In this document: positions 14,892 to 61,560 of the stretch, in pieces
How positions within the stretch are numbered: the first letter of the stretch is position 1
How the letters are laid out: every line of letters starts with the position of its first letter
Assembly (NCBI RefSeq): GCF_008831285.2
Contig: NC_045146.1
Coordinates: forward strand, 21,033,289 to 21,097,288
DNA: 64,000 nt
From: Nymphaea colorata
Lineage: Eukaryota > Streptophyta > Magnoliopsida > Nymphaeales > Nymphaeaceae
Direction: 5' to 3'
The notes under the pieces: model-generated
The model's database searches: none
The model's input: only the letters and a program-made list of their open reading frames with translations
Told to the model about the DNA's origin: nothing
Position numbers and translations under genes: made by a program

Positions 14892-16135
14892 AGAAGAACA
14901 TAGTTTGATTTCTTCACTAAGGTACTTTACATTTGTCTTTCTTATCACTTTTGTTATTTCTGTCATGTGCCCTTCGATCGTTAAAAAATCCAGCCACGAC
15001 TCAAAGTTGGCCGAACTCATCCGTGATTTGGTCCTGACTTGCTCAATTCAACTGCAATGATCTACAATATAGTTATTTTAAAATTCAACCGAGTTACCGA
15101 GTCAACTCACTAACCCAATGACTCGGTCATCTACCCATGGAGGCTGGGTCACCAGTTTGCTAACTATAACCATGTGTGCTTGAGGGCTTGACCTTGATTG
15201 CAAGCATAATAGAGTAGAAATATTTGTGTTCTTATCAATTTGCATTTCAGTATAGCTTTCTGATGTTTTCACGATTTTTACAAATTTTTAGGATCTTAAT
15301 TTCATGAGGAAAAGTTGTATTCGAGGACCACTATTCTCTAGTACCAAATTATTCAAAATTTTCTGATTTTTAGTTTTTCAAAATCCTTTACTTTTGTAGA
15401 TTCAAACAACACTTTCTTTTGGTATAGCTCTTTACAAAAACAGGTCCTTTGGTATTAACTCTTTACAAAAACAGGTCCTTTTAATCAAACTTGTCAAGAC
15501 TATAAAAGTCTTTTATGACTTTTTATTTCTAGAATAAAATTGAATTTGGGTTTGGTTCTTGGTTTAGAGTTTCTTTTGTGAAAATTAGCCCAAAAAATTT
15601 CAGAATTTTTTATCTTTCGGTGTTTTTTTGATAGATTTTTAAACTATTCCCTGTCTTTGTTTCTCAGGAATCAAAATTCTGAAAACAGAGCTCAGTTCTG
15701 GTTTTTTAGTTCTATCTTTAAACAGATTTTTGCATTCAGCAGGTGCTCTCCTCTTTCGATTTCCCTCGATTCTTGCATTCTCAGTCTTCTTTTTCACCGT
15801 CCTTCGATTCTCGCATTCGAGGGTGATCGCTCTCCCTCGATTCTTGCATTCTCGAGTCTTCTTTTTCACCGTCCATCGATTCTTGCATTCTAGGGTGATC
15901 TTTCTTTCAAGTTCTTCTGATTGCTGTGTATAAGTTTCCATCGAGTTATACGTGATTATATGTTTCTTTTGGACGGTCTAATTGGAAAAGATCTGGGCCA
16001 TGAATTTGTGAATCTTGAGAAAAGGCGAACTCTCTCTCTATAGGTGGTTGTTTCTGCATGGCACATTATGATCGGGTTTGTGTTCTGTCTTTTCTTATTA
16101 CCTAAGAACCTGATTGACAGACTCTTGTAGGAAAG
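14892..16135. other. Repeat-bearing non-coding stretch
   Basis: Just outside the 3' LTR, aacatagtttgatttcttcact (14897-14918) repeats a motif found left of the element at about 9744-9765, and the tgtgcttgag...caagcataatagag block (15174-15212) repeats 9790-9826. Local tandem repeats are present: ctctttacaaaaacaggtcc twice (15428-15480) and a roughly 70-bp unit with gattcttgcattct and ctttttcaccgtcc twice (15765-15900). No gene is recognised. Confidence 0.6.
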
Positions 16136-16246
16136 ATGAACGAAGCCAACGAGGAAGGCGAACGAGGTACCGATCTCCAACTTCTTAAGAAAAAGCTGGC
16201 TGGTTATATGCACCGTCAGGTGCATAAAAAAATGCACACTCTATAG
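16136..16246 (+). CDS. Short open frame, 36 codons, unrecognised
   Basis: It follows a plausible acceptor (ctcttgtag|gaaag), so it might be the last exon of a gene rather than a whole one. The peptide begins MNEANEEGERGTDLQLLKKK and is Glu/Lys-rich and probably helical. I recognise no family and see no convincing upstream exon. Confidence 0.15.
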   Translation: MNEANEEGERGTDLQLLKKKLAGYMHRQVHKKMHTL

Positions 16247-16641
16247 AATGACGGAAATACCTATGTTCATAAAAAAAGATATTTTTTCTACAAGGGTAAA
16301 ACAGGTAGTAACATTTTTAAAAGTCAAGAAAAGACATTCCTTCCAGCACGTCACAACTTATTGACCAGCAGTGCTGAAATCTAAGAATGGCGAATTATTG
16401 CGTGCGCCTGCATAACTTGCCACAAGTTTTGAACACAAAACCTGGTTATATGCACAGAACATACTTTGAACATGTTGTGAACTGGCCTACTCGTAGAAAA
16501 TAAAAATAATAATAAATGAAATGTTGTTTTATTGCATGACGATTCACGCCACTAGCACCGTTGCCCTATATGCTTTAGACGTTCCAACCACTATCTGGTA
16601 TCATTTGACTAAGTAATTAAACATGATCAACCCTCTCGCTG

Positions 16642-16649
16642 TATAAATA
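16642..16649 (+). promoter_or_regulatory. TATA box of the lone MiAMP1-like gene
   Basis: TATAAATA lies 115 bases before the start codon, predicting a leader of about 80 bases. A W-box core (TTTGACT, near 16605) lies 35-40 bases further upstream. Confidence 0.65.
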
Positions 16650-16756
16650 GATGAAGAAGAAGGTCGTAGATACCATCGATTTCCATCAACACCCAGCTAG
16701 CGAGATACTCCTTTATCTCAAGCTATTTAGCTAGTTTCTTCGATCTTCCACCATCC

Positions 16757-17089
16757 ATGGCGAGATCTTTGGGTTTGATCGCAGCCCTGGTGGCAATGCT
16801 TATGGTAGTTGAATTTGCGAGCATTGCGGATGCAAAGTACAAGAGCTACCTGAGGGTGTATGAGGAGGCAGGGTGCCGCCATCGCTCCGAGTTGTACAAC
16901 AGCTGCGGCTGCCACAACCTCAAGTACAGTGGCGGATTCAAGTATGATTACAACGAGAAGCATGACAAGGACTCAAAGATGACAGTGTACAAGCATCCCA
17001 ACTGCCATGGAGTTGGGTTTGTGTTGCCACATGAGGACAAGAATCACTGCAGGCCGTTCCCCTTCAAGAGCGTCCACATCAAGTGTTGA
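16757..17089 (+). CDS. MiAMP1-like secreted antimicrobial peptide (copy A)
   Basis: The intronless 110-residue precursor belongs to the MiAMP1 family, compact beta-barrel (Greek key / crystallin-like) antimicrobial peptides secreted by plants. Residues 1-26 are a signal peptide ending SIADA, and the mature part starts KYKSYLRVY. The six cysteines (40, 50, 52, 83, 98, 110) follow the family spacing: GC, CGC, NC, C and a C-terminal C preceded by PFKSVHI. GG at 59-60 and the F/Y-rich strand match family positions. By my count the mature part is basic (15 Lys/Arg against 9 Asp/Glu). A TATA box and an AATAAA (17127-17132) frame the gene. It lies 29 kb from the main array and on the opposite strand. 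Function in defence is known for the family; the target organism here is inferred only. Confidence 0.9.
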   Translation: MARSLGLIAALVAMLMVVEFASIADAKYKSYLRVYEEAGCRHRSELYNSCGCHNLKYSGGFKYDYNEKHDKDSKMTVYKHPNCHGVGFVLPHEDKNHCRPFPFKSVHIKC

Positions 17090-17126
17090 TCGCCTGGTCA
17101 TGTATATGGTCGTATATGGCTAATTA

Positions 17127-17132
17127 AATAAA
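17127..17132 (+). terminator. Polyadenylation signal of copy A
   Basis: AATAAA lies 38 bases after the stop codon. Confidence 0.45.
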
Positions 17133-18921
17133 GAAAGAGACCAAGTTGGTCTCCTTCGTTTGTTGCTTTGTCGTGTGTGTGCAGTTCATGAGTCTCTTGA
17201 GCCCTCTACGGGACTCGTGGAACTAGCAAATTACATTTCGAGCTTTAAGTGTTTTTGTGCGTGTTGCGCAGATGCACACTATCTGCATGTTTACTACGTT
17301 TCATGGAAATAAATGTATTACCTACATAACATGGTATTAATAAAGACTGATTTCTTTTATATGTTGTGGGTTGGACCATGTTTTCTGTGTTTTTTCATTG
17401 ATAATTTCATTAGCGATCAAAGTTTGACATGCGATTGAGCCTAAATTCGAATCGGGCGATTGAACACTGGAGGCAAGAGTACTATTGAGTTTAGTCGGAA
17501 TGCTCTTCCCAGAAAGGAAGATGATCATCAGATCCATCGTAAGAAATCTCGGGTCAAACTGTGTACACCAGACGGAAGACGGAGCAAGCCAGCCTGCTCC
17601 TATACATATATACTTAGCCAATTGGGTATGACTTCCTTGTCTCTCCTCCAAATATTTTTCTCTGCACACACACACACATAGAGCAGTTGCATGTATCATG
17701 TCTGGTCTCACAGGTGCGAAGATGGTCATTCCTTTGAATATAACTTTATCTTTTTGTAAAGCTAATTAGATTCTAAACCCGTTGCGTGCACCACCTTAGA
17801 GCGCAGACACACAAAATGGACATCTTGGGGATTCTATATTTTCTATTTTCTATCTTTTTGTTCTTAAAGTGGTGTTTGGTGGGATTGAAATCCCATACTG
17901 CTTTAAAAGGTGTGCATTGTAAGAGCATCAGCTTTGACTAAAGAAGGATCTTAAATCTATATTAGAAGTAAAAAACAATGAACTTAAAGTAGAATAAGGG
18001 GAAGGTGTTTGATCTTAAATCCCTGGACTCGTGATGTCAGATCACTGTGAATTTCATGTTCCAGTGTGAAACAAACACACCCTAAAGGGGAGAAGGGTTT
18101 CCTATTTGGATCATTTGGCACACATAACCATCTTTGCTTAGCTTCTTTAAATCCGGTTATGTTATCCAAGTGGATTATGCAAGTGGGTGTTAGGTACTCA
18201 AACGATGAAAATACTCTTGATCGAAAAATAAAAAAGAATGAATCCTCTTTTAGAAGGACAAAGATGAACACCCATAGCCCTCTCCGTGTTCTTAGCTTTG
18301 GTCCTAGTTACTGTTGGGCTTAATAAGGAGGCTGTGATCAGGTGAATCTTTTTAACAAATAGCCAACTTTTATGAAAAGAATATCTCTTTTTTCGTCACA
18401 CAAAAAACTTAAATATTTTGTTCTATAAATATAAATTGATATTTGAATTTATAGATCCCTGTTTTATTAGTAAAGTAATTAAATAAGTATTAATGAACTA
18501 GACAATGTTCTTAATTGTATATTTATGTGATCGCAATCACTTCAAGTACTACATATTTTTTTGACGATGATAAAATAGTAGAACCATGATAATCAGTTTG
18601 ATATTTATATTATTTTTCTTTGCTTTAATGAAGAAGAACCATTAGAATAAAGACCTTTTCGTTGTTAGCCGTTAACATAAAGATTTGACAACTTAATTTT
18701 TTCACTTGCTAAAACAAAGATCTACTCGTTTTTACTTTTGTTATTTTCATATATATGCCACAAAGCACTTCTTAGGGTTTAAAGTCCACAGCATAAAAGT
18801 GCAGTTCATTTCTTCTTTATGTAAGAGACAGAAGGAAAAGATTGATCTGATTTCAACAACTGTTAGACATTGAGGACATGCAGAGCCTGAGGAGATTATA
18901 GGGAGAAGTGGATTCTTAGAC
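17133..18921. other. Non-coding stretch
   Basis: No gene recognised. Short frames occur on both strands near 17337-17729 and 17984-18323 but lack family resemblance. The last kilobase is very AT-rich. Confidence 0.5.
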
Positions 18922-39077: not shown

Positions 39078-39096
39078 TGGTATCAGAGCTATCAAG

Positions 39097-43582: not shown

Positions 43583-44005
43583 CACGTGACGTTGGTACAG
43601 CACGTTGCTGCCTTGTTACCACTAATATCTTGTTAACATAGTCATATGCGTGCTGATATATGTTCCTCATCCAGTTACGAGTTTTGTTGAAGGAAGACTC
43701 ATCTGTGACATCATCCACGAGCAAGATACCCATGGCTCCCCCGTAAAAAGCTGTCGTGTTTGTCCCGAAGCGTTCTTGATTAGCTGTATCCCAAATCTGC
43801 AATTTGATACGTTTCATCAAGTTCAATGTTTCGAATCTTGGAGTCAATCAACTTCATTGTAGACTTGTAGTAAAGCTAGTGGTAGATGAGTACTATAAAA
43901 ACATGGAGGTGGCAACTCTTTCCAACCCCGCTATCACCGACGAGAGGGAGCTTGCTGGGTAGCTGAAGTCAGCTCGAGCTCTAGCTGCGGCGGCAGCCGT
44001 GGCTA
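43583..44005 (-). pseudogene. Rab8/RABE-type GTPase retropseudogene, N-terminal part
   Basis: Read on the minus strand, the order is AAAAARARADFSY, then in another frame KLPLVGDSGVGKSC (P-loop G1), [26 protein letters not shown] (G3, with DTAGQ changed to DTANQ), [32 protein letters not shown] and RAVPTSR. This is the plant RABE1/Rab8 order ([20 protein letters not shown] and so on). The NKxD nucleotide-binding motif is lost, the start Met is missing, and there is at least one frameshift and one stop. It has no introns, so it is a reverse-transcribed copy. Rab8/RABE directs Golgi-to-plasma-membrane traffic; this copy cannot. The remainder lies beyond the copia insertion at 38600-38820. Confidence 0.88.
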
Positions 44006-46334: not shown

Positions 46335-46646
46335 TCAGCACTTGATGTAGATACTCTTCCACTTGTCGAATTTGTAGCAATATTTCTGATGCTCATAATA
46401 TGGGTGACCATGTCCTTCGCAGTCTTCATACTTGTAGAAGAATGCTGGTTCTCCCTCGTAATAGTATTCGTAGCCACCATAGTACTCGATATTATGGCAA
46501 CCACACTCATAGTATTTCTCAGCAGGTTGTTGGCATCCTGGCCCCTCATACACTGTCAGATAACTTGCACTTGCTGTGGTAGCAAACGCCACTACCAAGA
46601 GGACGACGAGAAAGGTGGCCATGACATGAGGAAGAGCTCTTGCCAT
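46335..46646 (-). CDS. MiAMP1-like secreted peptide, acidic Tyr-rich form (copy B)
   Basis: The 103-residue precursor has a signal peptide at 1-27 (MARALPHVMATFLVVLLVVA to TASA). The mature part of 76 residues is the same length as MiAMP1 as I recall it. Mature cysteines at 11, 21, 23, 49, 63 and 76 match the archetype nearly one for one, as do GPGC, CGC, GGY at 30-32 and WKSIYIKC at the end. It is unusual in charge and composition: 17 Tyr, no Arg, and 12 Asp/Glu against 7 Lys, so it is acidic, whereas MiAMP1 is strongly basic. The first gene of the minus-strand array (lowest coordinate), it is the most divergent from its neighbours and the nearest to MiAMP1. A TATA box (46711-46720) lies upstream. 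It may be antimicrobial by another mode, or have a different role such as metal or wall binding (speculative). Confidence 0.88.
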   Translation of the reverse strand: MARALPHVMATFLVVLLVVAFATTASASYLTVYEGPGCQQPAEKYYECGCHNIEYYGGYEYYYEGEPAFFYKYEDCEGHGHPYYEHQKYCYKFDKWKSIYIKC

Positions 46647-46710
46647 GGCTGAAGTTTGGAGGTAAAACTAAGCAAGTGATGCTATGTGCTTCCTCTCCAA
46701 GTCTGTACCC

Positions 46711-46720
46711 CTATTTATAG
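46711..46720 (-). promoter_or_regulatory. TATA box of copy B
   Basis: CTATAAATAG on the minus strand, about 65 bases upstream of the start codon. Confidence 0.6.
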
Positions 46721-49232
46721 GAGGGGTTGCAAAGTGCACGGACTTTAGTTAATTAACATCTTTTACTTGGTCCATTTTGTTTGTAATTTTAAGGCATAGT
46801 CGCAAGCAGGAAGGCAGTATTTGGCTCAGAAATTCAATTTCATGCATCAGCACTCACGTGTAGGATATACCACAAGAATATGATGGCGTGATCGAACAGA
46901 TTTGTTGTGGTTTATATACAACAGGGTTAGTAAAGGATCGAGATGAAAGATTATTCAAACTGAGGATGTTCATGCTTGGTTATACATTCATTGGCCCCCT
47001 TTGGTTGTAGAAATAAGTTTTCGTTAAAATGGGTAGGATCGACGAAGCAACTGAAAAAGGCTGACAACGTGCCGTTTTCTTGACATCATTTTAAATGCTG
47101 GACTTGGGAAGAATTGAACTGGTATTCTAGCGGAAGGCCACGGGCAGGATTCAGTCATTGTGCTGTACATAAACAACGCAACCCTGCAACTGGTAGTTTC
47201 GCTGGACTGCCTTTTCCTGCCTCAGAAAGGCATGGCATGCAATTGGGTGGGGACGTCTCGTCATATCAAGATTATGTAATTTCTGATTGGTCTAAAAGAC
47301 TCGGTTTATCAAGTTTTTCTTATGATCCGTTAAAAACTGGTAGTATTTCTGCTAAACCATCTGAAAGAGAAAATAGTAGGAAAGAATTTTAATATTGTTG
47401 CCTTCATAGATAGGATGACTAAAGCCAGGGATTAGACTCGATCAAGATCCGGAAGTGTCGAGATGATCATTTTTTTTTTCCCTGAAGCGCACCTGTTGGC
47501 AAGCAAACTCAACTTGCTGTGCTCCATAGTTGGCAAACTCGCCGGTCTAACTTGTGAGTCACCTGATTCAATTATACTCATCATTTAGACCAAGGAGTTA
47601 GCTGGGATCATCAACTAATTACATGTTTTTTTAGCCTTGCATTGTTGGAAACTGAAGTTTATTATTTTGTAAATTGTTAAATGTAATTACTAACTTTACT
47701 GAGCATACATACAAACACTTATTTTACATGTCATTCAGTTTTAGATGATGAAAAAGCAAACATGAGGTCCCGACGAACTTATGTAAGTCATAAGTTTGTC
47801 AACTATGCACGCCTGCCCGGTCCTAACCTAATGAGTTTGGTGATTCAGGGAAAGGGGAAACAAAAAGTCAAACTCATGCTCGTTTGAACCAATACAAATG
47901 CATCGACAACCAGTCTTGACGAATTCATGACCAATTCAATACCAACTTTTGGCTTGCCACAAAGTCATCTAATTTGGAAGAAACTAAGCACAAAAACAGG
48001 TGTTAACTAATGTTACGTATTTGTCAGAATATATTTACTCCACGCTAATATAAAAAGCGCCTGGATACTAGTTATCCTGGCGTCAGATCTGAGAAAAGTC
48101 TCAGATCTGAAACCATTCTTGTCTACAGTCTTCGCTTCCTTGCATCGCAGGTCCAGCAATTGATAGAATAATGCAATTAGTGCCATATCATGCGATATGA
48201 GATCACGAAATTTGAGATCTGGACTACCAAATGCAATCTTAATGGTGCATTTAAGGGGACAAATTATGCCAGGTTTCGAGCCTCTGCTGACGTGCTGATT
48301 ACACTTGACATATGTGAGTCTCAGGTGCCACCCGATCAACCAAGTCCCACTTTTAATACCTCTGCCCATCTCTATGAATTTGATTTAGGCTCCTCAACAG
48401 CAGAAACCCCAAAAAATTGATCTCCAAAACCAAGGTATTTAAAAACTGAGTTGTTCAATGCAAACTTATGGGAGTTAGACTCCCACACTCCATTTTATTC
48501 CAAAAAATCAAAGAATTGGGAACAAAATAATCGTAGAAACTGAGTTGTTGATCTTCTAACAAAAAGAAAAGGGTAAGCAGGGTGCTCTGTTCTTGCAGAA
48601 GAAGCCCTAAGACAAGAAGACATACCAAATATACAGCAGTCATCACGAGGGAAAGATATTTTTCACACTAGATTTGCCAGTGAAACCATAAACTTGGCAG
48701 ACAAACAAGTCAAAAGAGAGGTTGATTCAATCTCCGTAGTCATGAGAGCACCTGTTCTTCTTCTGAATGTACAGATGGAGATTTTTCTGGATTGTTCGAA
48801 GGATTATCTTCATCAGCACCATGATTAGAATAAAAAGAAAAAGACAGCGACAAGACAGCTTAATTTTCTTACAATAGCTTAAGAGGGTGTTGGTAAACGA
48901 GCCGAACAAGTCAAACCAAGGGTGTTCATGCTTGGTTTGTCTTATAGCTCTTAAGCCGACACATTTTCAGGCGGGAGGACCGAATAAATGACGAATGGTC
49001 GGTGACTCGAAAGGCGACGAACTATTCCTGGTTCTTTGGTGCCGCGGAGGGGCATTTGAACTTCACCAGGCATGAATATTTCCAGGAAACTGGATTTACA
49101 GTTATTTATACTAATATCAGTATCAGCCTGTTTCGTGCCTTTACTTTTGACAAGTCAAAAGTTTGGGTGGTGGGGGATTCCGCTGCCGTCCTCATCGATG
49201 ACGGAAAATTAACTCCTCGCGTGCGCGGTTAG

Positions 49233-49440
49233 GGCTTTGGAAAATTATAAAAAAAGGCGTGGATGGGATCGGACAAAAGCGTGATTTCTTTGATACAGAA
49301 TTGACGGTTCATTTGAAAAATAATTTGCCCTGCCATTATCTGGTGCTTTGAAAAATGATGAAAAGAAGGTGTGCATCGGACCTGCCCAAAGCGTGATTTC
49401 TTTTGGGCCAGCATTGACGGTTCATTTGAAAGATAACGTG
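49233..49440. repeat. Two diverged tandem units, period about 111 bp
   Basis: The units start at 49233 and 49344. Shared words are gctttg(g/a)aaaat, aaagcgtgatttcttt and attgacggttcatttgaaa. Confidence 0.75.
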
Positions 49441-49456
49441 CATATATATTATCTTG

Positions 49457-49458
<2 letters not shown>

Positions 49459-49518
<60 letters not shown>
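49459..49518. repeat. AT microsatellite, about 30 units
   Basis: Uninterrupted alternating A and T. A second run of about 19 units lies at 49710-49748. Confidence 0.9.
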
Positions 49519-49522
<4 letters not shown>

Positions 49523-49708
49523 AAATGAAAAATAATAATTGAGTCATCCAGCATTTTAATCAAGACCGTCTATTTCCAGTGGTGAGAAAAAAAAATGTAA
49601 ACTAATATTAGATAGTTAAAATGACTTTCACTTTTTTTTCTTAATTGTTCACCGTGTTGGATTGAAGATGACTGAGTGACTACAAAAATTAGAGTCACCA
49701 TTCTTTTA

Positions 49709-49750
<42 letters not shown>

Positions 49751-49784
49751 GTACCAAAAACTAAAATAAGTCAACCATCATTTA

Positions 49785-50095
49785 TTGGCCTAGGTATTGG
49801 CCCGACATAGTAAGGACTTGGGGTTGGATCAGGCCGCAGCTTGTAATTGTGGCTCGGACCTGGGCCTAGCCCAACACCTGAAACCCGAGCCCGGGCACAG
49901 CCCAATGCAGACCAATTAAAATTAAAAATTATATTTTTAGTATAAAATAATATATAAATCTAATTAATAGTAGTAAAATATTATACCGAATCGAGCTTAG
50001 TCAGGTCCATCCGGATTGGTGTGACAACTTATCAGGCCAACCGAGCCAGGCACCACTTGGTACTCGTTGGTTACCTAGCCCAATGCTCAAGCTTA
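49785..50095. repeat. MITE-like repeat with GC-rich ends and AT-only core
   Basis: Words such as ggcctaggtattggcccga, gagcccgggcacagcccaat and aaccgagccaggcacc flank an AT-only core (49915-49985). The architecture matches 44590-44875. Borders are approximate. Confidence 0.35.
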
Positions 50096-50651
50096 ATCAT
50101 TTATGGTTGGATGAAATTTTTTTATTTTGTAATACTAAAAGCTATCACAAATGGCGCATTCTATGATTAAAAACTGTTGTCAACCAACTGCATATGTTGC
50201 AAAATGCACTATTCACAATGGCTTTTAGTGTCATAACCATGTCGTACTTAAACCAAATATCACCGCATGAATAATTAAGCGATACTCTACTAAATAAATC
50301 AACGGCTTGGTAGGAACCGGACCTGAATAGTGAACCTTAAGAACGAAACAACTAGAAAAACAATATGAAACAAATTCGTACGATATATGTTAAGGCAACC
50401 ATCTCAACTAGAGTCTCAGACCATAACTTTAAGGAGTACATTTATTTATTCCATAGCAGAGAAGAAGTATACAGACTTCTCGGCACCACGGACATACCCT
50501 TTACCAAACTAAACACGAGCTCAAGAGTCCAGTAAAGAAACATATAATGAAATGAACATGAACGAGACGCACTTGATGATCTCCTTCTGTATTGATTAAG
50601 CCATATGAACGTGGCAATACTTAAAAGGGCGCCTCACCGGTCACCGGAAAA

Positions 50652-50993
50652 TCAGCAGTAGATATAGACACTCCTGAACGGGAATATTGGGGTGCAGCTG
50701 GTCCGATTAACTCGACTTAGCCAGCGCGTATCCCCGTCGCAGCTGTGGTCCATGCACAATAACATGTTCTTGTCCCCGTCATGCTTCTCATTATAAACGT
50801 ATTTGTATGAACCACCGTACTTGAGGTTGTGACAACCGCAAGCTTCATACTTCTCGGACTGGCCTCGGCACCCTGGCTCCTCGTACACCCTCAGGTAGCC
50901 ATTGTATTTTGCGTCGGCAATGCTAGCAAACTCGACGGCCATAACCATTGCCACCAGAGCGGCGACTAAAGCAGCAGAAGATGCTCTGGCCAT
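50652..50993 (-). CDS. MiAMP1-like secreted peptide with a seventh cysteine (copy C0)
   Basis: The precursor has 113 residues. The signal peptide at 1-28 is two residues longer than in its neighbours (MARASSAALVAALVAM to SIADA). The mature part starts KYNGYLRVYEEPGC. The six family cysteines are at 42, 52, 54, 85, 100 and 113, with an extra Cys80 in LLCMDHSC. The loop GDTRWLSRVNRTSC differs sharply from the GYGRxLPQ...RC form of the other copies. An odd cysteine count suggests a free thiol, dimer formation or re-pairing, or relaxed selection. Only a weak TATA-like tacaaatag lies upstream (about 51099-51107). The 5' flank is shorter than in other copies and its ctctagtcaaataaggtgtg block lies unusually close. 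The frame is intact, so I call it a gene. Confidence 0.85.
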   Translation of the reverse strand: MARASSAALVAALVAMVMAVEFASIADAKYNGYLRVYEEPGCRGQSEKYEACGCHNLKYGGSYKYVYNEKHDGDKNMLLCMDHSCDGDTRWLSRVNRTSCTPIFPFRSVYIYC

Positions 50994-51009
50994 GGCGGCT
51001 TCAAAGGTT

Positions 51010-52618
51010 GAAGAGTAAAGAAGTACTAAAGATCGAATGTAGATTACAAAGGAATGGAGGACTGAGGACGTGACGGTAAGGCTGCTTCTTGGTCATCTAT
51101 TTGTATGCATTCTCAGATTTGGCCATGGCGGACGCACATTGTATGCATCCTCAGATTTCTGCTCTAGTCAAATAAGGTGTGTATGCTAACTCTGTCCAGC
51201 CGTTCCCTACGTGCATATTTGGAAGTACTATGAAAGATAAAGTTACTCTGGCCCCATGTTTTTGCCGAAGCGACACACAGATTGGGACTCTTTTTTTTCT
51301 CCTTTTCCAACCTATAACTATGGGTACTTACAGATATATATATATACATACTGTTTAAATCTTCTAACTATTTTCTGGCCCAAGAATCTGATTTCCTTAA
51401 TGTCAATTTTTAGGGATCATCACACATTTATATATTTCAAACCAACCCTTTTTGGGTATGAAAATTCTCCACTTTACCCTTACTTGATATTATTTGAACG
51501 TTTTGTACTTATAAAATGCATATTGTGTGCATAAATGCGCACATTAGAGATTGTTCGATATATAAAGAAATTACGCCTCCGGCTGGCATCAAGACCCTTT
51601 TGCAAAGAGAAAAAAGTGGCACAGTAGGTTGTCCATAGGGATGCCCCTAAAGCTAATTGGATCAGATTAACATGAGATTAAGAATTGGATCAGATTCAGA
51701 TTTAAATGAACATTGGATTTGGATTTAGTTTTAATCAAATATATCATATTTTCTGATAACCTTTAGAAGAGAAACCAATTGTAGCAGAGGCAGCTTCGAT
51801 TAAAAAATTTAGAAAAAAAAAGATATTGTCATAATACTTAAGGTGGTCACGCACTGAAAAAAATTTACAGGGTTTAGAACTGCACTAGAAAAACTTGTGC
51901 ACTCAGTTAAGACCAATTTCCATGATTTGTACACTGTTCATGGCCTAGGGCTCAGCTTGGAAGCCTTGAATTCATATGGAGATGCTGTAACTTCAGTGAA
52001 TTGGCGAAACCGGCATGAAACGTATGATGCTACCGCAATGATCATCTTGTCATCCGGCTAAAGTTTTTACCAAGGAGGAGAAATAGCATCAGACAAAGTA
52101 TTTACTGGAAAACTCTTGTCAATGAAAAAGCTCAAGGTCGTCTTCTTCACCGACAAATATCCGTGTTTAAAAGGATCGCTGTCAGTGTATCGAAGGACAA
52201 CCTTGGTGATGCTTCTTTTTACTGGCGAGAGTGTAGGAGAAATAATTGACGGTGCTTATAGTTCCGTTGATTCTGCGCCATAGATCAGATACGGTAATAT
52301 TCCAACGTATATATGTTCAATCATCAATGTGCCCAAGAAGGTGAAATCCGAAATTATGTAGAGGCAACCCATCTTTGTTAATCCCATGACGAGGAATGCT
52401 TACGAAAGCAATACATCATCCCAACAAACAAAAATACACAATAGCTAAATTAAACACGAGCTTCATGAGTCCAGTAGGAGCACTGCTCAAGGGATCACCC
52501 ATGAAACGCACATAAGAACAAACGAAGGAGCTCCCCACTTGATCTGCTTCTTTATTAAGCCATATCATTATCAAGATATGGCACTTAAAGGCGCCTCTCA
52601 CTGACGATCCCCATGAGA
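51010..52618. other. Spacer between copies C0 and C
   Basis: No gene recognised. The right-hand 250 bases are related to the 3' flanks of the other array genes (gcttctttattaagccatat, then ggcgcctc). At 51112-51136 the words gatttggccatggcggacg resemble the start-codon region of array genes and might be a tiny remnant of another copy. Confidence 0.4.
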
Positions 52619-52951
52619 TCAACACACGATATCGACACTCTTGAATGGGAATGGCCTGCATCGGTTCCCATCGATTTGAGGCAACACACGTCCAAATCCC
52701 TCGCAGTTATAGTCCACGTACCCTATCATCGTCGAGTCTGCGTCATGCTTCTCATTATAATCATATTTGTACCCACCATTGTACTCCAGGTTGTGACAAC
52801 CACAAGCTACATACTTTTCGGAACTGCCGCGGCACCCTGGCTCCTCATACACCCTCAGATAGCTGCTATATTTTGCATCCGCAATGGTCAAGAACTCGAC
52901 GGCCATAATCATTGCCACCAGAGCGGCGACTAAAGCAACAGATCTGGCCAT
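52619..52951 (-). CDS. MiAMP1-like secreted peptide (copy C)
   Basis: The product has 110 residues. The signal peptide at 1-26 is MARSVALVAALVAMIMAVEF to TIADA, and the mature part starts KYSSYLRVYEEPGC. All six cysteines lie at 40, 50, 52, 83, 98 and 110. The GGYKYDYNEKHD and PFPFKSVDIVC blocks match copy A. I chose the start at MARS because it aligns with every other copy and begins the signal peptide. An in-frame upstream ATG at 52993 would add 14 residues (MILILLHSSTFGNA) and lies downstream of the probable transcript start. The gene is head-to-tail with copies D, E and F. Confidence 0.9.
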   Translation of the reverse strand: MARSVALVAALVAMIMAVEFLTIADAKYSSYLRVYEEPGCRGSSEKYVACGCHNLEYNGGYKYDYNEKHDADSTMIGYVDYNCEGFGRVLPQIDGNRCRPFPFKSVDIVC

Positions 52952-53061
52952 GGCGTTTCCGAAAGTTGAAGAGTGAAGAAGTATTAAAATCAATCGGTAA
53001 CAAGGCTAGCAAGGGAATATTGGAGGACCAAGGCAGCGATGGTAATGCTGCTTCTTGTTCA

Positions 53062-53071
53062 TCTATTTGTA
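53062..53071 (-). promoter_or_regulatory. TATA-like element of copy C
   Basis: TACAAATAGA on the minus strand, aligned with TATAAATAGA of copies D', E and the like. One base departs from TATA. Confidence 0.45.
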
Positions 53072-53188
53072 CATCAGCGATGGAGCACTGCTAGTTCAAG
53101 GGTCTGTGGACAATGTTGTTTTGCGTCTATTTCAACGATACCAAGCGCCGGAACATAGTAGTTATGTAGTACTTGTGAATTATTTCAA

Positions 53189-53215
53189 TTGACCACAAAG
53201 TTCTGCATGAATAAA
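53189..53215. promoter_or_regulatory. Conserved upstream block of copy C with TTGACC core
   Basis: ttgaccacaaagttctgcatgaataaaac-type block, about 120 bases beyond the TATA position. It is shared with 53807 (remnant D'), 56043 (copy D) and 58504 (copy E), and in altered form with 61533 (copy F). TTGACC contains a W-box core (TTGAC), the WRKY binding site in defence promoters. Regulation is inferred. Confidence 0.4.
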
Positions 53216-53554
53216 ACAGCGGTGCAATATTAAGATATTTCAGTAAATTTGGTGAATACATTTTTTTTAGTATATTCTAGAACTTGCTTATATCTAGGGA
53301 GGCGCATATTGTAAATCCATCCATAGATTTCATGAACTCCAGTCAAATAACATGTGTGGCTGTTGAAGCGATCGGGGTTCGCTCACCTTCAAAGTTTATC
53401 AGGAACAAGTTTGGGGGAACTTCAAAGTCTTGCATGATGAAGAAAAAGATGCTTCAGTTGTCTTTTTTACTCCCTTACACAACCCGGCCTCTAAAGTTAG
53501 CAAAGTCGGAAACTGTGGTCTTCGAACACTAATTCAAAACGTTCTAGATTCTTA

Positions 53555-53594
53555 GGGCCACCAGAACGGCCACCAAAGCAAAAGATTTGGCCAT
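53555..53594 (-). pseudogene. Start remnant of a MiAMP1-like gene (copy D')
   Basis: After an intact-looking promoter and leader (TATA at about 53695-53705; leader cacctcttcactcttcaacc and so on), the minus strand encodes MAKSFALVAVLVAL, the first 14 residues of the array signal peptide, then departs to RI and a stop. The rest of the gene is missing; the DNA beyond (below 53550) is unrelated or belongs to the 5' flank of copy C. Its leader and flank are closest to those of copies E and F. This marks a deletion breakpoint within an earlier array member. Confidence 0.85.
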
Positions 53595-53694
53595 AGCGGA
53601 CGTTCGAAAGGTTGAAGAGTGAAGAGGTGTTGACTAAGATTGCGTACAAAGGGGAGAAGGACTGCGTTGGTGAGTGTAATGCTGCTTCTTGGTC

Positions 53695-53705
53695 ATCTAT
53701 TTATA
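53695..53705 (-). promoter_or_regulatory. TATA box of the remnant D'
   Basis: TCTATAAATAG on the minus strand, retained although the coding part is gone. Confidence 0.55.
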
Positions 53706-53806
53706 GATCGGCGAGATCTGCTGGTCAAAAGGATTGTGGATAATGCTGTTCTGCCTTTTGTAGCGGCGAAGCAGAGTAAGAATATAGTACGTGTGGATTA
53801 TTTGCA

Positions 53807-53835
53807 TTGACCTTGAAGTTCTGTTTGAATAAAAG
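53807..53835. promoter_or_regulatory. Conserved upstream block of remnant D'
   Basis: TTGACC core followed by ttgaagttctgtttgaataa, aligned with the blocks of copies C, D and E. Confidence 0.4.
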
Positions 53836-55480
53836 CGGCATGCAATAAGATATATACTATTTCATTATTCTCAGCTTGCTCTCATTACGAAGTCAAGAAG
53901 AATTACTTTAGTACATTTGACCAAGGCTCACCAAAAGTTAGGTGAGCGCACATTGTGTCCATCCTTGGAATTCAGGTCTAGCCAAATATAGGTCCATAAA
54001 AATGTTTATTTTCATATTGAAACTATATTAGAGCTTTTTTCATTTATACACAAGTGCCATAAAAATTTAAAATAATATTTGGTCCCAGAAACATCTGGAT
54101 CCAGATTACTAATGAGATTCAGATTTGGCATGCAGTTTTGCCACTGACCAACGGAGTCAAAATCAATGTACGATCGATCCAATAATAATTATTAGCTATG
54201 TGCCAGTTACATTACCATTCGCTGCCAACTAGAGCAAGCTAAAGATGCATGTGTCAAATATTACCATTCGCTGCCAACTTGAGCAAGCTAAAGATGCATG
54301 TGTCAAATACACCTAAGTCATGATTGATTGCGAAAATTATTAGTAGTTTCGTCATCTACACCTACAGCCTCATGTTTTAAGGGAAATGCATGGAACTGGG
54401 AGCGTTTGAATTCACGAACAAGGACAAGTCGCTTGCAAGCACAATATTTATACAAAAAAAGTTTTCGATTTGCAAAATTATCAAAGCCTCACCTCAAGCT
54501 TTTATTTGACAGTCTTTATGAAAATTGTGGCCCTTAAGAAAATTACGAAACGTAGTCTGTTTATGAAATTATCGGTGAAACGTTGGCCATGAAATCAAAA
54601 TTTCTCTTATCAGATACGAGTTCAAGGCAAACTTCAGAGCGTTGCAACATAAATCCATTACTTTATCTTATATTATCTTACACAACCCCGCCTTTCAAAA
54701 ATGTTTCTGAATAGGTAAGTTCCCACATCAGGGTTTTTATAATTTATATTCTTTTTACAAGTTGAACATACAAATTGTATCATTTTCTGTAAATTTTCTT
54801 TTGGGGATCGGATTCCCTGTGCTTGTAGACTTGATCTCTTCATTCTTTTATTCCTTTTTAATAAAGGAAGGTAGCCAACTCGAACTCAGCTTGGCTACCT
54901 TAAGCCACGCCTTGGCTCGAACTTCGACTCATCTCGAAGTTAAAAAACTTCAAACCTGGTTCGGTTAAGCTCCTCCTCTTCGGATTTGGATTTGACTCTC
55001 TTCTATCAGTTCCAAAACTTGGAAGAACACGAAATGATCTAGCATTATGGAAACTTACATATGCTCTCATTTGAACATAGCAATCATATTTGATCGCTTG
55101 ATTCATTATGTTAGATTTTGCCAAGTAAATGAATTAACAGTCTGACAAGAGTGAAAGATATCTGACCTGAAACATTGCATGTGAAAGTTAGCAGCGAAAG
55201 TAAACAATATGTCAAGGCAACCCATCTTTATTCAAATTAACCATAGGTGGTACAGCAATTTCCATGGCTGACAAGAAGTACACATACTTCTCCCCAACAC
55301 ATAAAAATACACTTAACTAAAATAAACACGATCGCATGAGTCCTGTAGGAGGGGAGCAAACCATTATTGAAATGCACATGAAAAAACCCACTTGCTCATC
55401 TGCTTCTTTATTAATTAAGCCATATCAGCGTCAAGAGGTATGGCAATACTTAAATGGGCGCCTCGCTGATCACCAGAAAA
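53836..55480. other. 5' flank of D' and 3' flank of copy D
   Basis: No gene. Bases 54211-54310 are a two-unit tandem repeat of about 50 bp (ccattcgctgccaact...gatgcatgtgtcaaata). Bases 54660-54990 are a block repeated in the flanks of copies E (59400-59560) and F (62566-62910): ctttttacaagttgaa, attgtatcattttctgtaaa, ttttcttttgggg, then a CGAGCC-rich tail. The right 270 bases are the shared 3' flank. Confidence 0.55.
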
Positions 55481-55813
55481 TCAGCACTTGATGTAGACGC
55501 TCCTGAATTGGAAGGGCCAGCAGCGATTCCTATCGACTTGAGGCAACGCGCGACCATATCCCTCGCAGTTATAGCCCTTGTACACTACCATCCTCGAGTC
55601 TGCGTCATGATTCTCGTTATAATCATACTTGTATCCACCATTGAATTCCAGGTTGTGACAACCACAAGCTTCATACTTCTCAGAACGGCCGCGACACCCT
55701 GGCTCCTCATACACCCTCAGGTAGCTGTTATATTTTGCATCCGCAATGCTTGCAAATTCGACGGCCATAACCATTGCCACTAGAGCGGCGACTAAAGCAA
55801 CAGATTTGGCCAT
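55481..55813 (-). CDS. MiAMP1-like secreted peptide (copy D)
   Basis: The product has 110 residues: signal peptide MAKSVALVAALVAMVMAVEF to SIADA (1-26), then KYNSYLRVYEEPGCRGRSEK. Six cysteines lie at 40, 50, 52, 83, 98 and 110. It ends PFQFRSVYIKC. It is closest to copy C in sequence and 5' flank, so the pair likely shares a duplication. Start chosen at MAKS by alignment; an in-frame ATG at 55855 would add MILILLHSSTFGIA, nearly the same extension as in copy C, and again falls downstream of the TATA box (55922-55933). Its distal 5' flank is broken off at about 56246 by a copia fragment. Confidence 0.9.
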   Translation of the reverse strand: MAKSVALVAALVAMVMAVEFASIADAKYNSYLRVYEEPGCRGRSEKYEACGCHNLEFNGGYKYDYNENHDADSRMVVYKGYNCEGYGRALPQVDRNRCWPFQFRSVYIKC

Positions 55814-55921
55814 GGCGATTCCGAAAGTTGAAGAGTGAAGAAGTATTAAGATCAATCGGTTGCAGCTTTGAACAAAGGAATGGAGAACCAGGGCAGCGAT
55901 GGTAATGGTGTTTCTTGTTCA

Positions 55922-55933
55922 ACTATTTATAGA
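55922..55933 (-). promoter_or_regulatory. TATA box of copy D
   Basis: CTATAAATAGTT on the minus strand, 110-120 bases upstream of the MAKS start. Confidence 0.6.
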
Positions 55934-56042
55934 GCAGCGATGGGGTAAAGGGACTGTTGACAATGCTGTTCCTGCGTCTAGTCCAACGATACCATGCGCG
56001 CCGGAACGTAGCTGGAATGTACGTGCTTGTGAATTATTTTCT

Positions 56043-56070
56043 TTGACCAAAAAGTTCGGCATGAATAAAA
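56043..56070. promoter_or_regulatory. Conserved upstream block of copy D
   Basis: TTGACC core then aaaaagttcggcatgaataa, aligned with copies C, D' and E. Confidence 0.4.
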
Positions 56071-56249
56071 CCGCGGTGAAATATTAAGATATTTTAGTTA
56101 ATTTGGTCAATATTTTTTTTTAGTATATTTGAGGACTAGCTATAAGTTAGGCAGGCGCATATTGTAAATCCATCCTTGGATTCAATGATGAATTCTTGTG
56201 AAATAAAGTGCGTGGCTGTTGACGGGATCGGATTCGCTCACCTTCTAGC

Positions 56250-57540
56250 ATCCGCCGCTTTGCACAGTCCAATAGAAACATGTGCTGGATGTCGACGTTA
56301 TCAACAATGGAATAAAGAGGCAATCACAAAACGCAAGAGAGTTAACGTACCTGGTTCGGCTATTATTGTCTACATACAGACTTATTATTATCATTTTTTT
56401 TTTGTTCACCTTATAGACATATAACGGAAGAAGACAACGGTTGAATACAATAAAGGAAGGAAACAATAAAGGAAAAATATTTTCTGCATTAGGGAAAACA
56501 ATAAATCTCTCTCTCAAGTTGGGGAGCTGATGTTGATTTGCCTCACTTGCTATTTATCCATTGATGGTGCTTCTTTCTTAGGGCTTTAGTAGATATATCT
56601 GTCAATTGATATTGGATACCATGTGAAGTATATATTGTTTTGTTTAGAATTTTTCACGAATAAAATGACAATTGATCTGGATGTGCTTATTTCGTTTATG
56701 AACGCTGAATTTGCACCAATATAAATGGCTGCCATGTTGTTGCACATAAGATTCATGGGTTTTTCAATTTTGATTCCTATATCAAAAAGAAGCGTTTTGA
56801 CCCATCATGGGTTTTCCACCACTCTCTTTTTTGTTTTTCCAAGTGAGAATGTTACTTCCCACAATACTACAAAATCTGGTGACCGATTTTCTATCACTCA
56901 GATCTCCAACCCAATCTACACTTGTGTATCCGATCACTTCAAGGTTATTATTTCTTTTCATTAAAGTTCATTTTCCTAAACTCACCTTTAAATATTTGAG
57001 AGTGCGATGAACAGTTTCCAAATGTATGGAACGATGATTGTGCATTACTTGGCTTATCATGTTGACTACGAAAGTGATATCTGACCTAGTTATGGTAAAA
57101 TAAATTAACTTTTCAAGAAGTCATTGAAAACCTTGAACATCTTGAATTGGTTTCTCATCGTCTTTTCTGATTTTCTAGTTAAGGTCAAGAGGAGTCGAAC
57201 TCGGCTTAGCTCCTCAGAATCAACATGTATTTTCTTTACATAAAAAAATGCTTTCTTCTGAATGTGTAGCTTCAATACCAAAAAGATATGTCAACTTCCC
57301 TAAATTTTTTGTTTGAAAGTTGTCGTGTAATATGGCTTTGACTTCCTTCTCTTGTTCTACAGTGCCTTATATAACAATAATGTCATCAATATACACCATT
57401 AAGATAACAATACTTTGTAGGGAGCGAAAGACAAAAATAGTGTAGTCTATAGTGCTTTGCTTAAACCAAATGTCAATAGGCACACTACTGAGTTTCGAGA
57501 ACCATGTGTAAGCTACTTAAACCCAATCTCAATAAGCACA
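56250..57540 (-). mobile_element. Ty1/copia fragment, broken
   Basis: A minus-strand relic carrying the later part of a copia polyprotein: reverse-transcriptase YIDDIIV block (about 57370-57400), the LGKLTYLFGIE block (about 57270-57300), HRTLKYLK (about 57000), RNase H words SDRKSVTRFCS and ILTWK (about 56830-56900) and CNNMAAIYIGANSAF (about 56700-56750). A possible LTR piece lies at 56250-56520. It is broken in several places and lacks its 5' part; no target duplication was found. It sits where the 5' flank of copy D departs from that of copy C, so it entered the array after those copies arose. Age: old. Confidence 0.8.
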
Positions 57541-57558
57541 CCTCCACATGCCAGAGTG

Positions 57559-57773
57559 AACAAATAGAAGGGAGCTACATGTCAACAGGCTTGATTTATT
57601 CCAACAGCAAGTAACATATGGATTTATTTTCCGTGGCTAACAAGAAGTATATATATATACTTCTCCTGAACAAATAGAAGGGAGCTACATGTCAACAGGC
57701 TTGATTTATTCGAACAACAAGTAACAAATGGATTTATTTTCCGTGGCTAACAAGAAGTATATATATATACTTC
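57559..57773. repeat. Two-unit tandem duplication, about 107 bp each
   Basis: Units 57559-57665 and 57666-57773 each run from tgaacaaatagaagggagct through caacaagtaacatatggatt to gtatatatatatacttctcc and are nearly identical. The second unit is the start of the standard 3' flank of copy E; copy F has a single unit (60720-60790). Confidence 0.85.
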
Positions 57774-57982
57774 TCCCCCACGCATAACGTGAACACTTGA
57801 TAACCAAATAAAACAGGAGCCAAATAGTCCAGTAGGCCGAGTGACTGAGGGACGCATATCGAAATCCACATGAAATTAAGGAGACCCACTAGATATTCCC
57901 CTTCCTTATTTATATGCCATATCAACGTCGAGATCATGGCATCAACTTATTTCTAAGGGCGCCTCGCTCGCCGGAAAATTAA

Positions 57983-58315
57983 TCAACAGTGGATGTAGAC
58001 ACTGTTGTATCGGATTGTCCAGCAACGTTCCCGATCAGCTTGAAGCAACGTGCGTCCATAGCCCTGGCAGTTATAGTCCTTGTACAGTGTGACGCTGGAC
58101 TCCGGATCATGCTTCTCGTTGTAATCGTATTTGTATCCGCCATCGTACTTGAGGTTGTGACAACCACAAGCCTCATACTTCTCGGAACGCCCGCGGCACA
58201 GCGGCTGCTCGTACACCCTCAGGTAGCTGTTGTATTTTGCATCGGCAATGCTTGCGAACTGGACGGCCATAACCATGGCCACCAGAACGGCCACCAGAGC
58301 AGCAGATCTCGCCAT
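57983..58315 (-). CDS. MiAMP1-like secreted peptide (copy E)
   Basis: The product has 110 residues: signal peptide MARSAALVAVLVAMVMAVQF to SIADA, mature KYNSYLRVYEQPLCRGRSEK. Six cysteines lie at 40, 50, 52, 83, 98 and 110. The usual GC at the first cysteine reads LC, and the end is RYNSVYIHC instead of PFxFKSVxIKC. The mature part is nearly identical to copy F (one difference, His versus Tyr in NEKHD), with matching 3' and 5' flanks, so this is the youngest duplication in the array. A good TATA box (58402-58414) and the TTGACC block (58504) are both present. Frames opening farther upstream start at or before the TATA box and are not used. Confidence 0.92.
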   Translation of the reverse strand: MARSAALVAVLVAMVMAVQFASIADAKYNSYLRVYEQPLCRGRSEKYEACGCHNLKYDGGYKYDYNEKHDPESSVTLYKDYNCQGYGRTLLQADRERCWTIRYNSVYIHC

Positions 58316-58401
58316 AGCAGACGTTCGAAAGGTTGAAGAGTGAAGTGGTGTTAATGAGGAGAGAAAGACTGCGTTGGTGATTGTAATGCTGCTTGTGGTC
58401 A

Positions 58402-58414
58402 TCTATTTATAGAT
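58402..58414 (-). promoter_or_regulatory. TATA box of copy E
   Basis: TCTATAAATAGAT on the minus strand, about 90 bases upstream of the start codon. Confidence 0.65.
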
Positions 58415-58503
58415 CGGGGAAATCCGCTAGTCAAAAGGACTGTGGATCATGTTGTCCAAGGACCGAAGCAGAGTAGGAATATAATAAGCTTGGATTATCT
58501 GCA

Positions 58504-58532
58504 TTGACCACAAAGTGCTGTTTGAATAAACC
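58504..58532. promoter_or_regulatory. Conserved upstream block of copy E
   Basis: TTGACC core then acaaagtgctgtttgaataa, aligned with copies C, D and D'. Confidence 0.4.
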
Positions 58533-60998
58533 TGGCATGCAAACACCTATACTATCTCATTATTCTCAGTTTGCCAACAGCTTTGGTTTTGTAGACAATA
58601 CTAGTTTTTGTTGCAGTGTAAGGTAACCACACATTGTGCCAATCCTTGGATTTCAGCTATAGTCAATTACGGCTTGTGTGGTCATGGAAAGGATAGGGGC
58701 TCTTTATCACCTTCAGCCCGTTGTTTTCTACTGGCAAGCTAGGAAGTAGGGGCGGAGTTAGGTGTGGGTAGGCAATTGCTCACATAAACCCAGAAAAGTG
58801 TTTATTTTTATATTGAAATTTTACTACAGTTTTTTCATTTATGTATTAATGTTCTTTAAAAAGTTGAAAATGTTGGATGACTGTAGTTTCCGGTGGTCAG
58901 TACGTAGTAAGTTTTGCCTAGTGTGATTTTCTTAAAGCGCACCCAGACTTGAAGCTGTTTTTCTTCACCCATGTTTTGAGACTAGTTTTCCCAAACTGGC
59001 TATCGATGATGATCATATGAATATATTTGATTTTCAAATGCAATTTTTTAATGAGACTCAGATTTGGCATGCAGCTTTGCCAACGATCGATGGAGTCAAA
59101 ATCCAAGTATGATCGATCCCATTATGATAGGATAAACGTTGGAGCGATCGAGATACGTATTAATGGGGATCCGTAATATAGATGGATCATGAATTTGGTT
59201 AAATGAGATCCAATCCAGATTCGACATAAGCTATATAATTACTATCTATGTGCCAAACAATTTTTATTTTTTGCAACACAAGGCCACCACAATTTCCCAA
59301 CAACTTTTAAATTGGCAAATTTTTATTTTCCGGCCTATTTTTTGCCATAGTTTCATAAAAGAGACCACAGCTACAGTTTTTTAAGAAATCACAATTTTCT
59401 GAACAGGCAAGTTCCCTATTAAGCACATCAGGGTCTTTATGATCTATGATCTTTTTACAAGTTGAAAGTACACATTGTATCATTTTCTGTAAATTTTCTT
59501 TTGGGGAATTCCCTGCGTTTGTATACTTGAACTGTTCATTCTTTTATATATTTGATGATGCCTTACCCTAAGTTAGGTAGGCGCATATTGTGTACCATCC
59601 TTGGATTTTAGCTCTAGTTAAATAAGGTGTGCGGCCGTGGGAAGGACAGGAGCTCCTTATCAGTTTCAACAGTCGCTTCCTACAAGCAAACTAAGAAGTA
59701 ATGAAGGACGTTAGTTTCCGGCAAATCAGTAGGAAAGGTTGCCTAACGTGAATTAAATATTTTCTTAAAGCGCACACGGAATTGGAGCAGTTCTTCTTCA
59801 CCTATTTTTTCCGAGTTTGCCTAATTTCCCACATTGGCTATCGATGATGGTCGGTGAATTTATTTGATTTTCAATGCAAACTTTTTAATTTATTCTTATT
59901 CTTACAAAAGGAGACACGATTCGTCTACTTTTTAACTATAATTTACAAAAAAAAAAGGGACTTGCATTTATGATTACAAAAAATCACACTTTTCATCAAA
60001 ACTGTCATTGTAGGAGAAGTGAATTTTTTACCTAAAACGTCCAGAACGTAATCTAGTGACCAAAGAGGTTAATGTTGAAAAAAATGGTGCAGCTAATGTT
60101 TTCTATTTTTCAAAATTAACTTAAGCTCGCTTCAAGCTCTTAATATTTGATTGCTTTTACAAAAGCTTGGTCCTGATTTAAAAAAGTCGCGTAAAAAGTT
60201 TCTTTTATTGAACTACGGGTGAAATGTAGGCGTTGAAAGTGAAAGTTCTCTTTTCTTTTCTCTCAGTTAAGGGTTCAGGGACAAACTCAATCCTTAGAAC
60301 GGATCGACTTTCCCCCGCCCATAGACAAAACCTGTTTGCAAAACAATGGTAATTGCGGGTTGCTGGGCAGCAGCGGTGAAAAGTTTCTTCCGGGCGTGCA
60401 ATATATATTTTCTGTCCAGTTTATATAACTATTCATGGATTGATTGTACAAGTCAGTTTTGAATCTTTATTTTTTGTTCACACAACAAGCACTAAATAGC
60501 ATCTCGTCGTGTAGAATTACAAACTTGTCAAGTGGGGTTAGTCTAGCTAGCATTATAGAAAAGTATGTTTTTTCTTAATTATGTCAAATTCTGCCAAGTA
60601 ATTAAATCTGATAGATGGACAGATACCCTAACAGAATTGTCATGAACGAAAAAACTTGAAGGACAAGATGAAACAATTCACCCAAAACAGGCATGTTAGA
60701 GGCAACCCAGCTTGATTTATTCGAACAACAAGTAACATATGGATTTATTTTCCGTGGCTAACAAGAAGTATATATATATATACTTCTCCCCCACGCATAA
60801 CATGAACACTTTGATAACTAAATAAAACAGGAGCTCAAGAGTCCAGTAGTTCGAGTGACTAAGGGACCCATATCGAAATCCACATGAAATTAGGGAGACC
60901 CACTAGATATTCCCCTTCTTTATTTCTATGAGCCATATCAACATCGAGATCATGGCATCAACTTATTTGTAAGGGGGCCTTGTTCGCCGGAAAATTAA
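58533..60998. other. 5' flank of copy E and 3' flank of copy F
   Basis: No gene recognised. Bases 59400-59560 carry the block also seen at 54660 and 62566. Bases 60710-60998 are the 3' flank shared with copy E (atggatttattttccgtggc, then ggcatcaacttattt). Confidence 0.55.
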
Positions 60999-61331
60999 TC
61001 AACAGTGGATGTAGACACTGTTGTATCGGATTGTCCAGCACCGTTCCCGATCAGCTTGAAGCAACGTGCGTCCATAGCCCTGGCAGTTATAGTCCTTGTA
61101 CAGTGTGACGCTGGACTCCGGATCATACTTCTCGTTGTAATCGTATTTGTATCCGCCATCGTACTTGAGGTTGTGACAACCACAAGCCTCATACTTCTCG
61201 GAACGGCCGCGGCACAGTGGCTGCTCGTACACCCTCAGGTAGCTGTTGTATTTTGCATCGGCAATGCTTGCGAACTGGACGGCCATAACCATGGCCACCA
61301 GAACGGTCACCAGAGCAAAAGATCTCGCCAT
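60999..61331 (-). CDS. MiAMP1-like secreted peptide (copy F)
   Basis: The product has 110 residues: signal peptide MARSFALVTVLVAMVMAVQF to SIADA, then a mature part that matches copy E except NEKYD for NEKHD. All six cysteines are kept. The coding part looks intact, but the promoter differs from copy E: the TATA position reads TGTAAATA (61421-61430) and the TTGACC core upstream reads TTGCCC (61533-61538). The open frame extends far upstream to base 61505, but the MARS start fits all homologues and the predicted transcript. The protein may be made at low level or under other control (inference). Last array member before the window end. Confidence 0.92.
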   Translation of the reverse strand: MARSFALVTVLVAMVMAVQFASIADAKYNSYLRVYEQPLCRGRSEKYEACGCHNLKYDGGYKYDYNEKYDPESSVTLYKDYNCQGYGRTLLQADRERCWTIRYNSVYIHC

Positions 61332-61430: not shown

Positions 61431-61532
61431 GATCGACAAGATCCGCTGGTCAAAGGGATTGTGGATCTTTTTGTTCTGCCTTCTGTAGCGCTGAAAGCAG
61501 AGCAAGAATATAGTACGTGTGGATTATTTGCA

Positions 61533-61560
61533 TTGCCCATAAAGTTCTGGTTGAATAAAA
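61533..61560. promoter_or_regulatory. Conserved upstream block of copy F, core altered
   Basis: TTGCCC in place of TTGACC, then ataaagttctggttgaataa; the rest of the block is kept. Confidence 0.4.

Follow-up and report, generated by a model that had tools for sequence, protein, structure and literature searches.

MiAMP1-family peptide genes in Nymphaea colorata: a cluster probably grown by tandem duplication of genes with their flanks

A 64,000-nucleotide stretch of the Nymphaea colorata genome (contig NC_045146.1, here C9; C9:21033289-21097288; hereafter the window) carries a run of short, similar open reading frames that resemble the antimicrobial peptide MiAMP1. The locus raises the question of whether these frames form a genuine gene cluster, how the cluster grew and what its peptides would do. 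MiAMP1 has been described as a basic peptide of 76 residues with two Greek-key motifs, and its structure resembles that of a killer toxin from yeast, an inhibitor of glucan synthesis (PMC4695807). Sp-AMP was described in a review as altering fungal walls via glucan binding (PMC11313046). A pine study groups Sp-AMP/PR-19 of Scots pine with MiAMP1, and we liken it to the present family by this published grouping rather than by sequence; the same study gives the distribution of MiAMP1/PR-19 as patchy, with members in a lycophyte, conifers and Amborella and low numbers in monocots (PMC6108113). MiAMP1 is also named in two further papers (PMC7886984; PMC10796067). Our literature search found no report joining MiAMP1 and Nymphaea.

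The preliminary description of the window, made from the letters alone, placed six MiAMP1-like genes on the minus strand between 46335 and 61331. All six were confirmed as uninterrupted ATG-to-stop frames on that strand, and all six scored above the cut-off of 26 bits in an HMM search against the Pfam MiAMP1 family (PF09117), with 43.1-68.9 bits. The array was therefore real as described, and its extent was incomplete: a seventh intact copy on the plus strand and a continuation beyond the window had been missed. The seven intact genes of the window are as follows.

16757..17089, plus strand: C9_01, intact, 110 aa; Pfam score 62.3 bits; mature pI 9.04
46335..46646, minus strand: C9_02, 103 aa, acidic and tyrosine-rich; mature peptide 76 aa (assumed cleavage), pI 5.2, six cysteines
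50652..50993, minus strand: C9_03, 113 aa; seven cysteines in the mature part
52619..52951, minus strand: C9_04, 110 aa; mature pI 5.6
55481..55813, minus strand: C9_05, 110 aa
57983..58315, minus strand: C9_06, 110 aa; mature peptide the same as that of C9_09, which lies outside the window
60999..61331, minus strand: C9_07, 110 aa; mature peptide one residue different from that of C9_06 and C9_09

PF09117 was matched at E 0.01 or better by all 11 members scanned, namely these seven and four paralogues on contig C3. The best solved-structure match was MiAMP1 itself (PDB 1c01), with the six cysteines aligned and an E-value of 2.3e-15 for the 11-member profile; no other solved structure gave a convincing match, the next standing at E 0.25 or worse. 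Furthermore, a cysteine pattern like that of MiAMP1, closed by a stop codon, occurred six times in 46335-61331 and seven times in the window, and a pattern of the same type appeared three times in total across 200 shuffles of 46335-61331 in which blocks of two bases were moved. Bacterial and archaeal contigs scanned with the family alignment yielded 22 pattern matches and no relatives, which is a weak test for so short a protein.

Each gene had also been described as intronless and as encoding a signal peptide and a six-cysteine mature part. The first point holds for the coding region and does not extend to the 5' UTR, where an intron is still possible. Signal-peptide-like N-termini were seen by eye, and a hydrophobic stretch and an A-x-A site were found, by eye and by pattern, in all 20 intact genes of the genome. 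Six cysteines are right for five of the six frames, the exception being 50652-50993 (C9_03) with its seven. Counted over the genome, six cysteines with MiAMP1 spacing are present in 15 of the 16 intact C9 genes and in all four C3 genes, C9_03 having a seventh; this odd cysteine could pair between molecules. With assumed cleavage, the mature peptides are 76-85 residues long on C9 and 88-94 on C3. The mature pI is 7.75-9.04 in 14 of the 16 intact C9 genes and 7.82-8.31 in the four C3 genes, and the mature peptides of C9_02 (pI 5.22) and C9_04 (pI 5.58) are acidic.

The peptides share with MiAMP1 of Macadamia integrifolia the profile match, the six aligned cysteines and, in C9_02, a mature length of 76 (assumed cleavage). 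However, the 20 genes are only 29-42% identical to it over 72-73 aligned residues; five further residues stand between the two halves in 15 of the 16 C9 members, two members on C9 are acidic and another has seven cysteines, and the loop in the first half is longer in the C3 paralogues. C9_02 resembles MiAMP1 most (42% identity, vs 29-36% for the other 19 genes), has the highest Pfam score of the six frames (68.9 bits) and is without the five-residue insertion present in other members. We considered C9_02 as a possible sister of the C3 genes: this placement had a bootstrap value of 95 in a DNA tree, but a protein tree that included 1c01 put C9_02 outside both groups. An AU test rejected neither alternative (p 0.25 and 0.26); branches were long and the bootstrap had not settled.

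We searched the genome (407.8 Mb, 783 contigs) by scoring the best candidates of a profile search, so that the count is a lower bound: at least 21 PF09117 matches were found, 17 in some 108 kb of C9 and four in some 28 kb of C3, and all 21 exceeded the curated cut-off. All but one (16 on C9 and four on C3) are intact with a start codon. The array extends past the edge of the window to C9:21130455, and the C9 locus of about 108 kb comprises 16 intact genes together with a frameshifted copy and a remnant made up of a promoter and a start; the copies are unevenly spaced at 1.6 to 29 kb. The first C9 copy (C9_00, 21021949-21022224) has no in-frame start, and immediately upstream, in a different frame, there is a start that looks like that of a signal peptide; from this out-of-frame start we call the copy frameshifted. 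A tblastn and blastn sweep of 184 kb of C9 and 80 kb of C3 added nothing except the known remnant. The second locus is the following.

C3:4297380-4325785: four tandem MiAMP1-family genes, all matching PF09117; much of the region is repeated together with flanks

The preliminary description had also reported a truncated gene start and growth by duplication of a gene-plus-flank unit. The features on which these two claims turn are listed here.

53544..53594, minus strand: remnant of 16 signal-peptide-region codons followed by TAG; not a working gene
53556..53919, minus strand: remnant start with promoter-like flank; repeat families D7 and D10; most like the flank of 60999-61331
53697-53705: TATAAATAG, within the remnant's promoter-like flank (53556..53919)
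53141..53227, minus strand: shared upstream element (family D3), upstream of several copies
14893..17777, plus strand: block around C9_01; inverted match to the blocks of C9_14, C9_15 and C9_16, in separate pieces of 78-94% identity

The truncated start was found as reported, with an ATG at 53594, 16 codons, a TAG ending at 53544, and a TATA box and promoter-like flank upstream. The D3 element is also present at 53759-53845, 55995-56081, 58456-58542 and 61485-61571 (64-71% identity), and the inter-copy repeats span both 5' and 3' flanks. Duplication of a gene-plus-flank unit is borne out for five of the six genes, and 46335-46646 (C9_02) lies outside the shared unit: when it was compared with 15 other gene-plus-flank queries at E 1e-6, only one 107-bp match was obtained, inside its coding region. 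The nearest relatives of C9_01 are C9_14 and C9_16, on the opposite strand about 70-80 kb away. An unannotated stretch at 7191-8837 recurs inverted beyond the window, between C9_15 and C9_16, at 83% identity, and the inverted duplication may therefore exceed the gene unit. Downstream of C9_06, at 57557-57776, a 110-bp unit stands in two tandem copies (97% alike), and a related copy of this unit (78%) lies downstream of C9_07.

Pairwise dS ranged from 0.02-0.07 (C9_14/C9_16, C9_06/C9_07 and the C3 set) to more than 0.6, and this wide spread indicates that duplication continued over a long time. In a global test for gene conversion, one of 105 pairs, C9_14/C9_16, was significant by a shared tract; the test left out the distant C9_02, and unequal constraint on coding and flanking sequence can mimic such a signal. 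Conversion between C9_14 and C9_16 is likely, judging from this tract.

The upstream regions were examined for motifs. A TATA[AT]A motif lies 73-147 bp upstream of the ATG in 13 of the 16 C9 genes and at 86-87 bp in all four C3 genes. We counted TTGAC[CT], which we take to be the W-box motif, in the 300 bp upstream of each gene: it occurred 16 times in the 16 C9 genes (shuffle mean 5.4) and six times in the four C3 genes (shuffle mean 1.2), and in neither set did any of 200 shuffles reach the count. At least one W-box was present in 12 of the 16 C9 genes and all four C3 genes, and none was found within 600 bp upstream of C9_02, C9_10 and C9_16 (three of the 16 C9 genes). The bare TTGAC core at 300 bp was less clear, with 14 of 200 shuffles reaching the C9 count, and the C3 excess of W-boxes was weaker at 600 bp (10 of 200 shuffles). 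AGCCGCC was over-represented in C3 (two copies), but it is positioned at the start codon. Six motifs were tried at two lengths and the promoters are related copies, so that the W-box counts are not independent and the enrichment is suggestive only; as a pointer to pathogen induction it gives a hint.

Selection was analysed with models M0, M1a and M2a, run with custom code rather than PAML; C9_00 was excluded from all trees and rates, and C9_02 from the C9 rates. For the main C9 set of 15 genes, omega was 0.30 and omega = 1 was strongly rejected (2dlnL 99.7), and a positive-selection class brought no gain (M2a over M1a, 2dlnL 0.00). For the C3 set, with four sequences only, omega was 1.54 and not different from 1 (2dlnL 0.98), and M2a against M1a gave 3.52, under the 5.99 required. 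Constraint was lower from alignment column 75 on (pooled pN/pS 0.40-0.58, vs 0.14-0.38 before). The members had been called diversified. This is true of the spread between a few old lineages (mature pI 5.2-9.0), and it does not apply as ongoing adaptive change in the main C9 array, for which the low omega and the lack of any M2a gain leave diversification unsupported. Selection appears mostly to have kept the peptide unchanged, which fits a gain in dose and in promoters better than an arms race over single residues.

Taken together, we consider it probable, at roughly 0.7, that these genes encode secreted MiAMP1/PR-19 defence peptides in a cluster grown by tandem duplication of genes and flanks. 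How the genes are built, which family they belong to, their number, the pattern of their duplication and the selection acting on them are shown by the present analysis. By analogy with characterised relatives, the fold, secretion, induction and antimicrobial action of the peptides would most likely be as follows. The peptides would be secreted to the apoplast via the signal-like N-terminus, and the mature part would fold as a Greek-key beta-barrel pinned by disulfides; they may act against fungi and bacteria through attachment to cell-wall glucan or disruption of membranes, and their promoters would probably be infection-responsive via WRKY factors. The cluster itself would have grown by repeated tandem duplication of gene and flanks, with one or more copies inverted and gene conversion probably contributing. 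Some observations stand against the defence reading: C9_02 and C9_04 are acidic, unlike the basic MiAMP1, and the odd cysteine of C9_03 misfits a plain three-disulfide peptide.

The acidity of these two window members would also suit a cluster in which the MiAMP1 fold is kept and most copies are developmental proteins or surface, seed or signalling proteins, the copy number then setting the dosage of a conserved secreted protein. An omega of 0.30 and near-identical peptides are as compatible with such a conserved role as with defence. We nevertheless hold this unlikely, since the activity-tested relatives in the literature consulted are antimicrobial or glucan-binding (PMC4695807; PMC11313046; PMC9828482) and duckweed homologues respond to pathogens (PMC9828482). 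An arms-race locus, with members diversifying under positive selection, would account for the coexistence of several old lineages with mature pI from 5.2 to 9.0, for the relaxed stretch from column 75 on and for the omega of 1.54 in C3. Its probability seems low to us, because M2a did not improve on M1a in C9 (2dlnL 0.00), which had already weakened this reading there, and because the C3 value is not distinct from 1 (2dlnL 0.98; M2a against M1a 3.52, below 5.99).

Near-identical copies (C9_14/C9_16, with a mature dS of 0; C9_06, C9_07 and C9_09) could, in addition, mean that some of the copies are artefacts of assembly, either a false tandem expansion or alleles placed side by side. However, the spacing of 1.6 to 29 kb is uneven, many pairwise dS values exceed 0.25, and the fetched C9 and C3 stretches are without any N, and such an artefact is very improbable.

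The best-described case of MiAMP1/PR-19 expansion so far is that of the duckweeds, a group that lost EDS1. To place the cluster beside that case, the EDS1_EP domain (PF18117), which is common to EDS1 and its relatives, was searched in the genome and gave 14 matches, 12 of them covering most of the domain (best score 239.4 bits). Twelve of the 14 EDS1-family matches are clustered within about 430 kb at C8:21428526-21860002. EDS1-family genes are thus present, and the expansion here is not coupled to their loss, unlike that in duckweeds. Growth of the family by duplication is already known: in PMC9828482, duckweeds combine a high MiAMP1 copy number with the loss of EDS1, and their MiAMP1 genes rise after Pseudomonas treatment, although the MiAMP1 orthogroups missed the authors' criterion for conserved upregulation. 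The same paper gives several copies for taro, and from taro its authors make the point that expansion needs no EDS1 loss (PMC9828482). The likeness of these expansions to the present one, by description rather than by sequence, lies in a high copy number in plants, with copies being born and lost (PMC9828482); the difference is that duckweeds are without EDS1 and this genome has EDS1-family matches. The taro-based point gains support from a cluster of this size in a genome where EDS1-family genes have been kept.

The C3 paralogues differ in the loop between CGCHN and SYEY, which has 17, 11, 16 and 14 residues with 8, 2, 8 and 4 histidines, respectively. Every loop histidine is encoded by CAC, and the tract looks as if it had grown and shrunk by codon repeats. 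The mature peptides contain 13, 7, 14 and 8 histidines in the C3 genes and 8, 9 and 8 in C9_01, C9_14 and C9_16. We rejected histidine-richness as a hallmark of all four C3 copies, only two being clearly histidine-rich; the totals of 7 and 8 in the other two do not exceed those of the three C9 genes. Among the matches listed in the literature for MiAMP1 and for histidine-rich plant peptides, no histidine-rich MiAMP1 member appeared. Metal binding by the C3 peptides is speculation from these residues. It is quite unlikely that in the C3 branch the lengthened loop is converting an antimicrobial barrel to a defence peptide that binds metal, as part of a set of peptides tuned in charge and metal binding that includes the acidic and basic C9 members. 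If it were so, the C3 peptides could withdraw zinc or copper from microbes or become active at acidic apoplastic pH, and the histidine-rich paralogues offer a testable idea on metal use by plant antimicrobial peptides.

Comparison of the fetched C9 and C3 regions gave 82 ORF matches at E 1e-5. A shared neighbourhood was not found within the short flanks: besides the four MiAMP1 genes, only five C3 ORFs were hit, all matching ORFs of C9 Copia-type elements. Outside the peptide genes, a 283-bp DNA match (69%) joins a site near C9:21132159 to C3:4331297-4331573. Within the window, Copia-type retrotransposon sequence flanks the plus-strand gene C9_01 on either side, at 39076-43320, 10505-14449 and 19331-21738; the first of these is one long open frame, and the other two are split over several frames. 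Pfam also matched four other pieces of the window.

2216-2560: lipid-transfer-like protein piece
4229-4651: Mg-chelatase ChlI-type piece
27238-28152: 2OG-Fe(II) dioxygenase piece
43389-43844: Ras-family GTPase fragment
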